From a virus: a DNA stretch of 42,261 nucleotides. Shown here piece after piece: positions 82 through 42,253 of this stretch; the stretch's first letter is position 1, and every line of letters starts with the position of its first letter. The stretch lies in IMG/VR virus record IMGVR_UViG_3300045970_000478, positions 1-42,261 of that record. The stretch is one strand, 5' to 3'. Under the pieces are notes generated by a model, which was not told the origin of the DNA, made no database searches, and was given only the letters and a program-made list of their open reading frames with translations. Position numbers and translations under genes: made by a program.

Positions 82-126
82 CCTCACGTTACGCCGCCCT
101 CCCCTGCTTGGCTGGGGCGAAGAGGT
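1..126. repeat. Terminal direct repeat, left copy (circular overlap)
   Basis: These 126 bases are identical to 42128-42253. The repeat covers the 3' end of the plus-strand RHH gene and the 3' end of the Cro-like gene, so it has no gene-level meaning of its own. An assembly overlap of a circular or terminally redundant molecule explains it best, giving a unit of 42,127 bp. Confidence 0.9.
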
Positions 127-346
127 CCTCGAAGGTGACCGGACGGCGACGACCGAGCTTTCGGAGATGCTCGGGACGGTTCAGGAAGGCGAGGATGTTG
201 CCGATGACCGTAGAGGTCGGGTCCTTCTCCCCACATTGGAGTGCGTACAGGTACTGGCGACTGATCCCGATCTGGTCCGCTGCCGCGGTCCGCGTCGAGC
301 CGATCGCGTCCAGGGCCTCTTTGAGCTTGTCACCTGCCGTTGTCAT
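89..346 (-). CDS. Cro-like HTH regulator
   Basis: An 85-residue XRE-type helix-turn-helix protein transcribed away from the CI repressor gene across a roughly 70-base control region. The HTH lies at residues about 18-45. Its recognition-helix segment ISRQYLY (residues 28-34) is identical to residues 50-56 of the CI-like repressor, so both probably read the same operators, as lambda CI and Cro do. There is no S24 peptidase domain, as expected for Cro. A TTGACA-17-CATATT promoter lies directly upstream with its -10 only 6 bases from the ATG, so the mRNA is probably leaderless. On the circle the gene converges with the plus-strand RHH gene. The Cro role is inferred from position and from the shared helix. 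Confidence 0.75.
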   Translation of the reverse strand: MTTAGDKLKEALDAIGSTRTAAADQIGISRQYLYALQCGEKDPTSTVIGNILAFLNRPEHLRKLGRRRPVTFEDLFAPAKQGRAA

Positions 347-409
347 ATCCGTAATATGGGCACGTCATCCCCAGATGTCAAGCCCCGAGTTGCCATTACA
401 GGCAGGGGC
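344..409. promoter_or_regulatory. CI/Cro intergenic operator region with two inverted repeats
   Basis: Two symmetric elements are visible. CATAT-ccgta-ATATG (344-358) covers the cro -10 and start codon. TGCC-attaca-GGCA (391-404) lies upstream of cI and is flanked by GCCCC (382-386) and GGGGC (405-409), which extend the symmetry imperfectly. These are candidate operators for the two regulators sharing a recognition helix. Plus-strand promoter candidates for cI are TTGCCA (390-395)-17-GAGAAT (413-418) and TTGTCA (327-332)-19-TAATAT (352-357); neither is strong. Confidence 0.45.
353..381 (-). promoter_or_regulatory. Promoter of the Cro-like gene
   Basis: On the minus strand a perfect -35 TTGACA (376-381) is separated by 17 bases from CATATT (353-358). 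The expected start point is at or next to the A of the ATG at 346. The 10-base block CTTGACATCT that contains the -35 recurs exactly in the promoter at 41861-41889. Confidence 0.65.
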
Positions 410-416
410 CTAGAGA

Positions 417-1154
417 ATGTCGCCTATGGAAGACAGGCCGCGGCGCCGCGAAGAGATGGAAGCGATCGTCCGAGCGGCCCGATCACCCGAGGTGGGGCGC
501 GTCATCCGCGAGCGTCGCGAACTGGAGGGGCTGTCGGTCCAGCGGCTCGCCGGCATGGCCGAGATATCTAGGCAGTACCTCTACAGCATCGAGAAAGAAG
601 AGAAGGCGCCAAGCTTCGATGTCGCCCTGCGCCTTCTGACGTGCATCGATCCGACTCGCCGATTCATGATGAACGCAGAACCAGACCCTCGGAGTCGTCC
701 TGAATACGAGCCGACCGGCCGCGGTTTCACCCTTCCCGCCGGAAAGGACCACGACGCCGGCCGCGCTGAGAGCACTCTCCCTCTGCCGCTAGTTGCGGTC
801 GCAGCGGGAGGGCCTCCGATTGCGTTCGAGGAGATCCCTGGCGAGGAATACTCGGTTCTGCGCCACCTCCACCGAAAAGACCGATACGTGATCAAGATAG
901 TCGGTGAATCAATGAAGCCGACCTTCTGGGACCAAGACCTCTTGCTGATTGAACCGACCGAGAAAGTGAAGGACGGCACGGTTGCCGTCGTGCTCGTGAA
1001 GGGCGAAAGCACGGTGAAGCGAGTCCACCGGCTGAGGCGAGGCGGGTTCCTCTTGAAGAGCGACAACCCGTACCACCCGCCGATCGAGGCCGATGCTGAA
1101 GAAGTTGAAATCAAAGGAAAAGTGCTGAGGATCGTGGACGGCGTGAGGCCGTAG
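417..1154 (+). CDS. cI: CI-like repressor (XRE HTH + S24 peptidase)
   Basis: A 245-residue LexA/CI-type repressor that would hold the phage in lysogeny and be inactivated by RecA-stimulated self-cleavage. An XRE HTH spans residues about 27-75. A linker leads to an S24 peptidase domain with the nucleophile Ser165 in VGESMKP and the general base Lys201 in TVKRV. The usual Ala-Gly cleavage site is present at residues 130-131 (VAVAAGGP). The start at 417 has AGGGG 8 bases upstream; ATG at 426 is an alternative, and would be leaderless if the promoter with -10 at 413-418 is used. Two lipoprotein genes follow, the first after 9 bases, so they probably share its transcript in the lysogen. The recognition segment ISRQYLY is identical to that of the divergent Cro-like protein. 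Confidence 0.93.
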   Translation: MSPMEDRPRRREEMEAIVRAARSPEVGRVIRERRELEGLSVQRLAGMAEISRQYLYSIEKEEKAPSFDVALRLLTCIDPTRRFMMNAEPDPRSRPEYEPTGRGFTLPAGKDHDAGRAESTLPLPLVAVAAGGPPIAFEEIPGEEYSVLRHLHRKDRYVIKIVGESMKPTFWDQDLLLIEPTEKVKDGTVAVVLVKGESTVKRVHRLRRGGFLLKSDNPYHPPIEADAEEVEIKGKVLRIVDGVRP

Positions 1155-36189: not shown

Positions 36190-37641
36190 TCAGGCAGCCG
36201 ACCGTTCGGCCGGCAGCGTTTCGACATTCAGGGGCCCGTCAGTACGGCGGGCCAGAATCACGTTCATACCCAGTTCAGCGGCCTTGGCGGTCAGGGCGAC
36301 CCAGTTCGCGTCGTCAAGCGCCTCGCCGTGGTCCGAGACCAGGAGCGGGACGTCTTTGACGCGGAGGGTTGCGACCTGGAGGGCGATACCGACCTGGCGG
36401 GCCGTGTTGATCCGGTCGAACGGCAGCCCGTCGACAAAGACGTCCCCGTCCCTCAGCTCGAGGCCGGGTATCGGCAGTGTCGCCAATTTCGAAGCCCGGA
36501 GCTCGTCGAGGCGGCCGATCGCCTCGGAGATGGACTTCGCCTCGACCTCCGCCTTCTCGGCGTCCTGCTCGGCCCCGGCGAGGATTTCCCGGGTCTTCTC
36601 GGCGCGGGCGTTCTCCCGCTCGCGCTCGTCGGCCACGGCGACCTGGGCGGTGAGTTCGACGATGCGGGGGTCCAGGTTGGCGCGGAGCTCGGCCGCCTGC
36701 TTGGCGGCGCTCTCCTCCGTGACGCGGAGGGCGGTGGTCAGGACGTCCCGTTTGTAGGCGTCGAATTCGTCGAAGGCAGTCCGCGCAGTCTGTTCCGCAG
36801 CGCCCCGTTCGGCGTTGACCTTCTCGGTGAAGAGCCGGATCTTCTCGGCCGCATCCTCGGCGATCCGGATGAGACGTGCGCCCAGGCGTTCCTTCTCGGC
36901 CCCGACTGCCTCTCGGTACGTGTCATGCGCCAGCGTGTCGAACCGCACGGCCTCCGCGGAGATGGCGGCCAGCTTCTCGTCCCGGGCCTTGGTGACCCGG
37001 TCGGCATCCCAGCGAAGTGACTTGGCGTCCTCGGGGGCCTCCGTCGGGGTCGGAAGGGTCGCCCGGAGCTGGGAGGCCGTAGCCCGCTTGTCCTTGGCGA
37101 CTCGGTTGAGCCCCGTCCTCTCGTCGTAGAGGGCCTTCCGGGCGAAGTCGATCCGGTCGAGTCCAGTGATCGCGGAGGCCAGCCGGAACGACGCCACGGA
37201 CCGCCCGGCGGCCGCGGCGAGCTCCTTGTCGCCGACCTCCACCGCGAGCGTTTCGGCCAGGAGCTCGGCCCGCTTCTTGGCCGGGCAGTAGATCAGGGCG
37301 AGCGGGTCGGTCCCGAGCTGGTCAATCAGGGAATCTACCCAGGCCCTTGCTCGAGATACCTTCCCGAGCTTTGGGTGGCGCCCCTCGAAGGAGGAACCCT
37401 TCGGCGTGACCGTCTTCTGCATCACGGAGCCGTCGTCGAGAGTCAGACGAACGAAACCGGACTGAGCGCCGGTCCGGAGGAGCGAGGCGTCATGCCCCTC
37501 GGCAGCGACCGCTCGGATCGCCTCGAGGAAGGAGGTCTTCCCGACTCCGTTCGATCCGGTGACGATGGTGAGGGCCCCTGGCTTTACGGTCAGCTTTTCG
37601 AGGCCCAGGATGTTCTCGATGTCGATCTGGACTACTTTCAT
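36190..37641 (-). CDS. SMC/RecN-like ATPase
   Basis: A 483-residue ABC-type ATPase with Walker A GSNGVGKTSF (residues about 30-39), a long helical coiled-coil middle (about 190-400) and a C-terminal half with LLVSDHGEALDDANW, in which the D and E fit a Walker B. It resembles SbcC/RecF-type ATPases in short phage form, but no SbcD/Mre11-type nuclease partner is next to it. ATG 37641 overlaps the stop of the exonuclease (TAATG), so the two are coupled, and the exonuclease may be the functional partner. Confidence 0.75.
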   Translation of the reverse strand: MKVVQIDIENILGLEKLTVKPGALTIVTGSNGVGKTSFLEAIRAVAAEGHDASLLRTGAQSGFVRLTLDDGSVMQKTVTPKGSSFEGRHPKLGKVSRARAWVDSLIDQLGTDPLALIYCPAKKRAELLAETLAVEVGDKELAAAAGRSVASFRLASAITGLDRIDFARKALYDERTGLNRVAKDKRATASQLRATLPTPTEAPEDAKSLRWDADRVTKARDEKLAAISAEAVRFDTLAHDTYREAVGAEKERLGARLIRIAEDAAEKIRLFTEKVNAERGAAEQTARTAFDEFDAYKRDVLTTALRVTEESAAKQAAELRANLDPRIVELTAQVAVADERERENARAEKTREILAGAEQDAEKAEVEAKSISEAIGRLDELRASKLATLPIPGLELRDGDVFVDGLPFDRINTARQVGIALQVATLRVKDVPLLVSDHGEALDDANWVALTAKAAELGMNVILARRTDGPLNVETLPAERSAA

Positions 37642-38396
37642 TACGCGGCCACCTCTTCCCCGTCGATCAAAAGCTCGACGTCTTCCGGGATATCGAGCGG
37701 AATCACGCTCATCGCGTAAGCCGGCCAGCTGCCGGTCTTCTCGCAGATCAAGAGCCTTTCGAGCCAGAGCCGGTACGTCCGGCGTCCGATGTCGAGGGCT
37801 CGGGGCGTCAGTTCGAACACCGTGACGGCGAATGGCGCCTTGTTCTCGACCGCCACGACGAAGGCCGACTGAGGAGCAGCGAGCCCCGCGGCGGTCAGCC
37901 CGTCGGCGTACCAGGCAAGCTGTGCCAGGTAGCCCATTCCGCTTGCGTGGCGGCTGAACCAGCCGGGCTCCGCGTTCACGGTGGTCTTCAGGTCGGTCAG
38001 CCAGGATCCGTCCGCTGCGACCACATCGGGCGTTCCGGCGCAGGCGCGACCGGCGACCGTCCACTCGATCCGGCGCTCTCGGATGCCCTGGAGGAGCGGC
38101 TGAGCGATCTCGGAAGCGGCCACCGCCCACGAGACCTCCTCGGCTGTCGCGAATTCATCGGCCGAGACGACCCGCTCCTGTTCGTCGAACGGGACGCCGG
38201 CCAGGAACGATTCCCAGGCCTTCCCGCGCCGGATGCCGCCGTCCCAGATGATCGGGGCGGGGCCGCCCAGGACGATCGAGTGAATGAGGCGACCCATCCT
38301 CATGGCGGCCGAGTCTTTGACGACGTCCGCGTAGTTCGCGTAGTGGAGGGGCGAGCGCCCCATGAGCTTCAGGCGGGAGAAGCGGAGCCGTTCCAT
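37641..38396 (-). CDS. RecE/RecB-type exonuclease (PD-(D/E)XK)
   Basis: A 251-residue exonuclease of the RecE/DUF3799-like phage group. Conserved elements: MRMGRLIHSIVLG near the N-terminus, the catalytic AGTPDVVAADGSWLTDLKTT (D and D-x-K), and YLAQLAWYADGL. Such enzymes digest one strand of double-stranded DNA for recombination, usually with an annealing protein. No Bet/RecT gene is recognised here; the adjacent OB-like protein may fill that place. ATG 38396 (a longer start at 38420 exists) lies 1 base after the upstream stop. Confidence 0.8.
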   Translation of the reverse strand: MERLRFSRLKLMGRSPLHYANYADVVKDSAAMRMGRLIHSIVLGGPAPIIWDGGIRRGKAWESFLAGVPFDEQERVVSADEFATAEEVSWAVAASEIAQPLLQGIRERRIEWTVAGRACAGTPDVVAADGSWLTDLKTTVNAEPGWFSRHASGMGYLAQLAWYADGLTAAGLAAPQSAFVVAVENKAPFAVTVFELTPRALDIGRRTYRLWLERLLICEKTGSWPAYAMSVIPLDIPEDVELLIDGEEVAA

Positions 38397-40969: not shown

Positions 40970-41659
40970 TCAGCTCGCCTGTCCAGCCGCGACCAGAGAC
41001 AGCTGCCTGGTCGGTACGTGTCGCATGACCAGCTCCCCGAAGTAGCGATCGAGGAGGCTCTTCGGGAATGTCCGGTTCGGGCGCCCGTGCATGTGGTGAC
41101 TCGGAGACCAGCCCATCCGGAGCTGGTGCATCCGGCATTTCGCCGCCAGAGCCCCACCGATCGCCCGGGACTGCTTCGGGATGAGACGGACGGCCTTCTG
41201 CTTGGACCAATCGGCCAGGGTCCAGAGGTCGAGGCTCGACACTTCGCCCCGGATCAGCTTGTACTCGGCCGAGGACATCTCGGAGAAGACCTGCCGGGCG
41301 ATCTCGCGCATCGCGTCTGGAGAACCGTAGAAGCCGTGTTTCCGAATCGACGGGAGGATCTCGGTATAAGTGAAGTCCTGGAGTTGCTCCGCGGCCGGGA
41401 GATCGCTGCGAAAGATGAGGCGCCAGTAACCGGGTTCCGTAACGAGGTTCACGTTCTGCGTGTGCCCGGGCCGAGATGGATCAAAGCCGTGCAGCGGATG
41501 CACGGCTTTCTCGACGGGGCGAAGCTTTCGCAGCGAGGACGCTACGTGCTTGAGCCCCAGGACCCTGCAAACGTCGGCGGCAACGAACCATGGGGTCTCG
41601 TCCAGCATCACGACACGGACCGGAGTCCCCTTGAAATCGAAAGGAATGATTTCGTTCAT
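40970..41659 (-). CDS. ant: Bro-N antirepressor
   Basis: A 229-residue protein with a BRO N-terminal domain in residues about 1-115: FVAADVCRVLGLKHVASSLRKL, then VNLVTEPGYWRLIFRSDLPAAE and FTYTEILPSIRKHGFY. Phage antirepressors of this kind inactivate repressors and push toward lytic growth. It follows an Arc-like RHH gene with a 4-base overlap, matching the P22 arc-ant operon. The C-terminal half is charged and may be the part that contacts the repressor. Confidence 0.8.
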   Translation of the reverse strand: MNEIIPFDFKGTPVRVVMLDETPWFVAADVCRVLGLKHVASSLRKLRPVEKAVHPLHGFDPSRPGHTQNVNLVTEPGYWRLIFRSDLPAAEQLQDFTYTEILPSIRKHGFYGSPDAMREIARQVFSEMSSAEYKLIRGEVSSLDLWTLADWSKQKAVRLIPKQSRAIGGALAAKCRMHQLRMGWSPSHHMHGRPNRTFPKSLLDRYFGELVMRHVPTRQLSLVAAGQAS

Positions 41660-41844
41660 GCCGCCTTCTCCTTCTTCTGCCGCTTGAGCCCGACCTCGAC
41701 CAGCTCCCGCGCCACGAACGACAAGGAGCGCTGCGTCCGCTGCGCTTCGGCGACGAGGGCCTCGAAAGCCTTCTCGTCGAAGCGGACCATCACTTGCCGG
41801 GTAAGGCGGGAGGAGGGGTCGGGATGAGTGAAGTTACGATCCAT
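41656..41844 (-). CDS. Arc-like ribbon-helix-helix repressor
   Basis: A 62-residue RHH protein starting MDRNFTHPDPSSRLTRQVMV; QVMVRFD is the beta strand, followed by two helices (KAFEALVAEAQRTQRS and SFVARELVEVGLKRQ). The reading starting further up at 41925 would lie in the promoter. Directly upstream is a TTGACA-17-TAGATT promoter and a plus-strand RHH gene. It overlaps the antirepressor gene by 4 bases. By analogy with Arc it would repress its own operon and the ant gene. Confidence 0.75.
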   Translation of the reverse strand: MDRNFTHPDPSSRLTRQVMVRFDEKAFEALVAEAQRTQRSLSFVARELVEVGLKRQKKEKAA

Positions 41845-41860
41845 AACGTTTCGATACTCC

Positions 41861-41889
41861 AATCTAGGCCCCGAAGGGGGAGATGTCAA
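41861..41889 (-). promoter_or_regulatory. Early promoter for the Arc-like/antirepressor operon with operator-like hairpin
   Basis: On the minus strand TTGACA (41884-41889) and TAGATT (41861-41866) are 17 bases apart. The spacer contains CCCC-gaa-GGGG (41869-41879), a symmetric element between -35 and -10, where the Arc operator lies in P22 Pant. The start codon at 41844 is about 10 bases after the expected start point, giving a very short leader. Confidence 0.65.
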
Positions 41890-41905
41890 GAGAGACTTCG
41901 TTGCG

Positions 41906-42208
41906 ATGCGAGACGACACTGCCAAGCGGCCCTATCAGGTGATGGTTCGAATGGATCGGGAGACTCGGGACCGGCTGGAGGCGGAGGCCAAGGAGAGGGG
42001 CCGGAGCCTTTCGGAAACCGGCTTTCTGGTGATCCGCGAGCACCTCGGCCTGGACGTTCCGGAAGCTACGGCTGGCCCGGCTGTCGAACAGCTCGCCATC
42101 CTCGAGAAGCAGATGCAGACCGTCGTCAGCCCTCTCCTCGAGCAGCTCCGCGCCGATCAGCGTCGGATGCAGGAGCAGCTCGACAAGCTGACCGGGAAGC
42201 GTCGGTAG
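41906..42208 (+). CDS. Mnt-like ribbon-helix-helix regulator with coiled coil
   Basis: A 100-residue protein from ATG 41906, with RHH core KRPYQVMVRMDRETRDRLEA and RGRSLSETGFLVIREHLGL, then a coiled-coil C-terminus (LEQLRADQRRMQEQLDKL) that may make it tetrameric, as in Mnt. It shares QVMVR-D with the divergent Arc-like protein, so the two probably read related operators in the 61-base gap between them. A longer GTG start at 41828 would overlap the Arc-like gene and is not favoured. It converges with the Cro-like gene on the circle. Confidence 0.75.
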   Translation: MRDDTAKRPYQVMVRMDRETRDRLEAEAKERGRSLSETGFLVIREHLGLDVPEATAGPAVEQLAILEKQMQTVVSPLLEQLRADQRRMQEQLDKLTGKRR

Positions 42209-42253
42209 CCTCACGTTACGCCGCCCTCCCCTGCTTGGCTGGGGCGAAGAGGT
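42128..42253. repeat. Terminal direct repeat, right copy
   Basis: Exact copy of bases 1-126, see the left copy. After it the contig continues for 8 bases (42254-42261) that differ from 127-134 of the left end. Confidence 0.9.

Follow-up and report, generated by a model that had tools for sequence, protein, structure and literature searches.

How an antirepressor module with two repressors of the same fold would work directly beside a CI/Cro region is the question raised by the joined ends of the IMG/VR virus record IMGVR_UViG_3300045970_000478, whose whole stretch of 42,261 bases was analysed here and is referred to as the window. A preliminary description of this DNA had recognised a switch like immI of phage P22, with two divergent RHH genes and an antirepressor gene, and had assigned to it Arc-like and Mnt-like parts. 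As a second immunity region, P22 immI is the textbook case. It is located among the late genes of that phage (PMC8022706). The features needed to follow the argument are given below, where L004 is a related phage.

89-346, minus strand: Cro-like HTH gene (Cro/CI-type HTH; HTH_3 23.2 bits, cut-off 23)
353-381, minus strand: early promoter upstream of cro, TTGACA-17-CATATT (10/12 matches; TTGACA-17-TATCTT at the same place in L004)
417-1154, plus strand: CI-type repressor with HTH and S24 peptidase domains (HTH_3 34.8 bits, Peptidase_S24 86.3 bits)
40970-41659, minus strand: Bro-N antirepressor gene, 229 aa
41656-41844, minus strand: RHH repressor gene in the Arc position (minus RHH), 62 aa, heading the antirepressor operon
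41845-41860, no strand assigned: conserved sequence ahead of the minus RHH start codon, a candidate for an operator, a ribosome-binding region or both (AACGnTTCGnTACTCC common to the window and L004)
41861-41889, minus strand: antirepressor promoter, TTGACA-17-TAGATT
41869-41879, no strand assigned: CCCC-gaa-GGGG palindrome in the spacer of this promoter, candidate operator
41885-41905, no strand assigned: conserved sequence ahead of the plus RHH start codon, a candidate for an operator, a ribosome-binding region or both, nearly identical in L004
41906-42208, plus strand: RHH repressor gene in the Mnt position (plus RHH), 100 aa, with an RHH domain and a long C-terminal helix
42128-42253, no strand assigned: end repeat, 100% identical over 126 bases to bases 1-126, joining plus RHH to cro

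The three genes of the module are as initially described. The best start of plus RHH is the ATG at 41906, and the AlphaFold model of its product comprises an RHH domain followed by a 42-residue C-terminal helix (residues 58-99), which fits the coiled coil that had been proposed. The divergent minus RHH gene runs from an ATG at 41844 to a stop at 41656, and its product is likewise modelled as an RHH domain. When compared with Arc (1baz) by Foldseek, both models match at an rmsd of 1.1 A, with probabilities of 0.99 for plus RHH and 0.96 for minus RHH and with E-values that are weak owing to the small size of the proteins. The QVMVR motif reported as common to both RHH cores is real. At the level of sequence families, plus RHH reaches 15.5 bits with the Pfam Arc family (PF03869), below its cut-off of 20.4, which minus RHH does not reach either; the L004 homologue of minus RHH passes Pfam RHH_5. 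Plus RHH gave no match to the Mnt C-terminal family PF11423, and its best PHROG, phrog_795 (E 0.0019), is the family that P22 Mnt and Arc match best as well. The Bro-N gene starts with an ATG at 41659 and overlaps minus RHH by 4 bases (ATGA), its product matching PF02498 with 55.8 bits (cut-off 25.6), several antirepressor PHROGs (best E 4.9e-35) and, at 1.5e-17, phrog_245, the PHROG of P22 Ant. Neither P22_AR_N nor P22_AR_C was matched by this antirepressor, which carries Bro-N only. A reading of the module as a toxin-antitoxin pair matched no toxin family, and was kept only within one of the alternatives weighed below.

The immI-like interpretation depended on translation of the plus-strand frame, and it is the comparison with L004 (IMGVR_UViG_3300013232_000070), the sole relative found in a search with plus RHH, that bears on this point. 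L004 also has the five genes cI-cro-RHH-RHH-BroN, arranged as in the window, on one contig, and the RHH domain of its plus RHH is about 80% identical to that of the window. Between the two genes, dN is 0.10 and dS 1.03, the differences fall mostly at third codon positions (5, 4 and 24 at the first, second and third), and stops occur in one or both sequences in two of the three antisense frames and in plus frame 2. These data indicate purifying selection on plus RHH, whose frame is therefore very likely translated. An upstream GTG was also considered as its start and is disfavoured, because the ATG at 41906 and the 20 bases 5′ of it are kept in L004. Minus RHH is much less conserved between the two phages than plus RHH, with 39% identity, a dN of 0.65 and a dS of 0.90. 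L004 differs from the window in an extra 55-residue open reading frame between cro and plus RHH, in the C-terminus of its Bro-N protein and in the lack of the spacer palindrome. The terminase of the window phage had no match in the L004 record, which may be incomplete. Further searches for relatives gave little: viral and genome scans with single window proteins returned only L004 or nothing, no RHH pair was found in the Bro-N relatives L005-L013 except for L009, which is the contig of L004, and the module was absent from the records of terminase relatives.

In this regard, the adjacency of the module to cI and cro after circularisation, which had been claimed from the window, stands, as bases 1-126 repeat 42128-42253 and L004 keeps the same order on a single contig. 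The last 8 bases of the window differ, so that no exact end overlap is seen, yet circularity or terminal redundancy of the genome is probable. With the ends joined, the gene order is cI (417-1154, plus), cro (89-346, minus), plus RHH (41906-42208, plus), minus RHH (41656-41844, minus) and Bro-N (40970-41659, minus). The first two have what is expected of a CI/Cro immunity region, namely divergent HTH genes and an S24 domain in CI. Once the 126-base repeat is joined, cro and plus RHH are convergent and their stop codons lie 7 bases apart; a sequence scan revealed no evident terminator between them, and so their transcripts should overlap and interfere. The phage also encodes an integrase, an excisionase-like protein and replication, head and tail proteins, nearly all on the minus strand, which makes minus RHH and Bro-N the first minus-strand genes past cro, probably within the early operon. 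What supports the idea of a double immunity region is purely anatomical, the module lying beside cro and cI.

Other genes of this phage deserve mention on their own account. Directly 3′ of cI, two small plus-strand genes (1164-1475 and 1494-1790) encode lipoprotein-like products with a weak, below cut-off resemblance to DUF4156, possibly lysogenic conversion genes, and a lipoprotein-like gene likewise follows cI in L004. On the minus strand, 36190-38130 encodes a 646-residue AAA/SMC-type ATPase (phrog_1499), whose nucleotide-binding site weakly resembles those of the ATPases of several defence systems.

The 61 bases between the two RHH genes contain the TTGACA-17-TAGATT promoter of the preliminary description, which agrees with the consensus at 10 of 12 positions, with 0.1 such sites expected in shuffles. 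L004 has TTGACT-17-CAGAAT (9/12) at the same place, and 10 of 14 related gaps score at least 9/12. The CCCC-gaa-GGGG sequence is also present within the spacer as described, and is not a convincing operator, being close to what chance gives and missing from L004: palindromes with 4-base arms occur in 52% of shuffled gaps, and in 3% when only the 17-base spacer is shuffled. Its proposed operator role was accordingly left unproven. Between the window and L004, the spacer of the promoter is not conserved and the blocks flanking both start codons are; the pattern of the 41885-41905 block had no match elsewhere in viral contigs. A repeat search of the gap found no operator copies at 9/10 matches. 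Three TTCG/CGAA words, spaced 25 and 22 bases, are only a hint of operator copies, three being reached in 1.5% of shuffles, and no operator could be defined in the window gap. A promoter scan found no promoter of the common type for plus RHH. On the other strand (41844-41866), no more than 16 bases separate the -10 element of the antirepressor promoter from the minus RHH start downstream of it, for which reason its transcript would be nearly leaderless. The conserved GGAG would be present in transcripts coming from the cro promoter, and the two sources of message may be translated differently.

The search for the same combination elsewhere, which the initial reading had called for, yielded a divergent RHH pair with Bro-N in 11 proteobacterial loci. 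Three came from 80 Bro-N loci of GTDB genomes (L051, a Comamonas MAG, and L077 and L105, both Pseudomonas), three more (L124, L133 and L129) from 30 Bro-N loci of the genus of L077, and five more (L207, L208, L209, L211 and L213), with L051 again, from 30 Bro-N loci of the family of L051. In these loci the longer RHH gene is the divergent one and the shorter precedes Bro-N, usually overlapping it, and the promoter is similar to that of the window. The gaps of L077 and L105 have three copies of one palindrome with a spacing of 25-26 bases, one copy in L105 being clearly inside the promoter spacer. The combination itself is thus not unique, and of the novelty originally attributed to the exact arrangement what stands is its place beside cro and cI, so far special to the window and L004, since no CI/Cro gene was found within flanks of about 6-10 kb near nine of these loci (with profiles built on two or three divergent sequences, by which genes may be missed) and two adjoin NlpC/JAB tail-type genes, a setting that recalls the late-gene location of P22 immI.

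Variants of the plan were also seen in these collections. In L213 (892-1340) the RHH genes number three, of which one is divergent and the others stand in tandem before Bro-N, and in two Pseudomonas loci (L131, 2149-2805; L123, 588-1076) the gene divergent to an RHH and Bro-N operon is HTH repressor-like and not RHH. A search of Pseudomonas with the Pfam Arc family gave no new pairs, and most of what it recovered belonged to a single widespread family, presumably the chromosomal AmrZ, whose open frames have about 110-150 aa.

Which sites the two repressors would read can be approached through their DNA-contacting residues. RHH repressors read DNA with the residues of their strand at Arc positions 9, 11 and 13. 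This strand inserts into the major groove (PMC3325190, which refers to the structure of Arc on its operator and to the specificity study by Knight and Sauer). The two proteins of each of 14 pairs, that of P22 included, were aligned and the partners shuffled between loci 20,000 times. The residue at Arc position 11 is identical within 12 of the 14 pairs, where 2.2 were expected and none of the shuffles reached 12, and no other column of the alignment gives so strong a signal (z 7.2); elsewhere the RHH domain has diverged and is only slightly above expectation (150, with 130 expected). When one locus per cluster was kept, the sole correction of the shuffle test for phylogeny, the identity held in 9 of 10 pairs (1.5 expected). 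Both RHH proteins of the window carry Q-M-R and both of L077 and of L105 carry Q-K-R, and within most of the proteobacterial pairs the reading residues are likewise the same; the exceptions to strand sharing are L051 and L208. The shared strand residues use the same codon in only 17 of 46 cases, which argues for selection at the protein level, rather than recent copying of DNA, as what keeps the strands alike; gene conversion, with different codons at the other 29, is not favoured. Since the DNA-reading residues are shared, most pairs, the one in the window included, probably recognise one common set of operators, like CI and Cro and unlike P22 Arc and Mnt, which share the residue at position 11 and differ at position 9.

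Altogether, we regard it as reasonably probable that the module is an immI-like antirepressor switch, with cro on one side and the remainder of the early operon on the other, in which the RHH pair competes at shared sites. In a lysogen, plus RHH in the role of Mnt would shut the promoter at 41861-41889, so that no Bro-N is made and CI stays active. Upon infection or induction, with plus RHH absent or low, this promoter and read-through from the cro promoter would produce minus RHH and, coupled to it, Bro-N, which would inactivate a CI-type repressor, the likely target being the CI encoded at 417-1154. Minus RHH, in the role of Arc, would limit its own operon. Having Q-M-R in common, the two proteins would most likely compete for identical sites within the 61-base gap in the manner of CI and Cro, the longer plus protein perhaps binding more cooperatively.

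The classical P22 logic would instead give the two proteins different operators, an Arc-like one in the spacer and a Mnt-like one adjoining it, with plus RHH as Mnt and minus RHH as Arc. The gene plan is the same as in P22, there is a palindrome in the spacer, where P22 has O-arc, and the P22 proteins, whose operators are distinct, differ in the first contact residue. Separate operators are nevertheless unlikely here, because the reading residues of the two window proteins are identical, which also applies to most other pairs; the palindrome, at its near-chance level and without a counterpart in L004, also speaks against them. RHH dimers are held together by an antiparallel pair of strands. 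A shared strand could then reflect pairing of the two subunits in a mixed dimer instead of competition, and neighbouring strand positions that do not contact DNA do covary as well, more weakly. It is the contact position that covaries most, however, and the helices of the dimer core have diverged, so that heterodimers appear quite improbable.

Two further explanations concern the purpose and the origin of the module. Minus RHH and Bro-N could be a controlled antirepressor directed against the repressors of other phages or against host functions, rather than the phage's own CI. A likeness of repressor-antirepressor pairs to toxin-antitoxin modules, and toxicity of some proteins of this kind, have been noted (Makarova et al. 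2009, PMC2701414), and the lack of detected CI-like genes near the proteobacterial loci examined would agree with a foreign target, but the module of the window and L004 lies directly beside cro and cI, and we judge this alternative fairly improbable. A mere local duplication of an RHH gene, with a likeness due to common descent and no role in switching, would account for the homology of the two genes, a profile of plus RHH also detecting minus RHH of L004. It fits poorly with a likeness concentrated in the reading strand and mostly encoded by different codons, and with the conservation of gene order and promoter, and is very improbable.

Returning to competition at shared sites, a broader version is advanced tentatively: that divergent RHH pairs over Bro-N are a widespread CI/Cro-like switch with both repressors competing for the same operators, which in the window and L004 is nested beside the CI/Cro switch and convergent with it, wiring both lysogeny decisions together. 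The loci collected here suggest that prophages from two or more orders of bacteria share the immI plan with another antirepressor family. If the shared sites are real, the two-operator scheme would give way to competition for shared operators, Arc and Mnt being a branch with split specificities, and this phage would combine two nested lysis-lysogeny switches in one compact natural circuit.

Compared with known systems, the module resembles P22 immI in having a single antirepressor promoter flanked by divergent genes for two RHH repressors, the shorter heading the operon and the longer bearing a C-terminal extension, and in the TTGACA-17-TA..T form of that promoter. The immI-like reading holds in its conserved order, in the selection on plus RHH, in the promoter and in the 11 further loci, and fails in the antirepressor family, the Mnt C-terminus, the room for sar and the location. 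The antirepressor is here of the Bro-N type, whereas P22 Ant has P22_AR_N/C; P22 Mnt and Arc pass the Pfam thresholds that the window proteins miss, PF11423 included; the 4-base overlap leaves no room for sar, the antisense RNA that in P22 lies in a gap of some 68 bases between arc and ant; both window proteins share all reading residues; and the module adjoins cro/cI, whereas P22 immI is near 14.5-16 kb and c2 near 31 kb. Known, then, is the immI plan, and new are the Bro-N antirepressor, the missing room for sar and the place in the early region; the open-access literature offered P22-type descriptions only, which is weak evidence for novelty. The lambdoid CI/Cro switch (immC) would be matched in another respect, two repressors competing for the same sites between divergent genes, with the difference that the proteins are RHH and not HTH and that the controlled output is an antirepressor.
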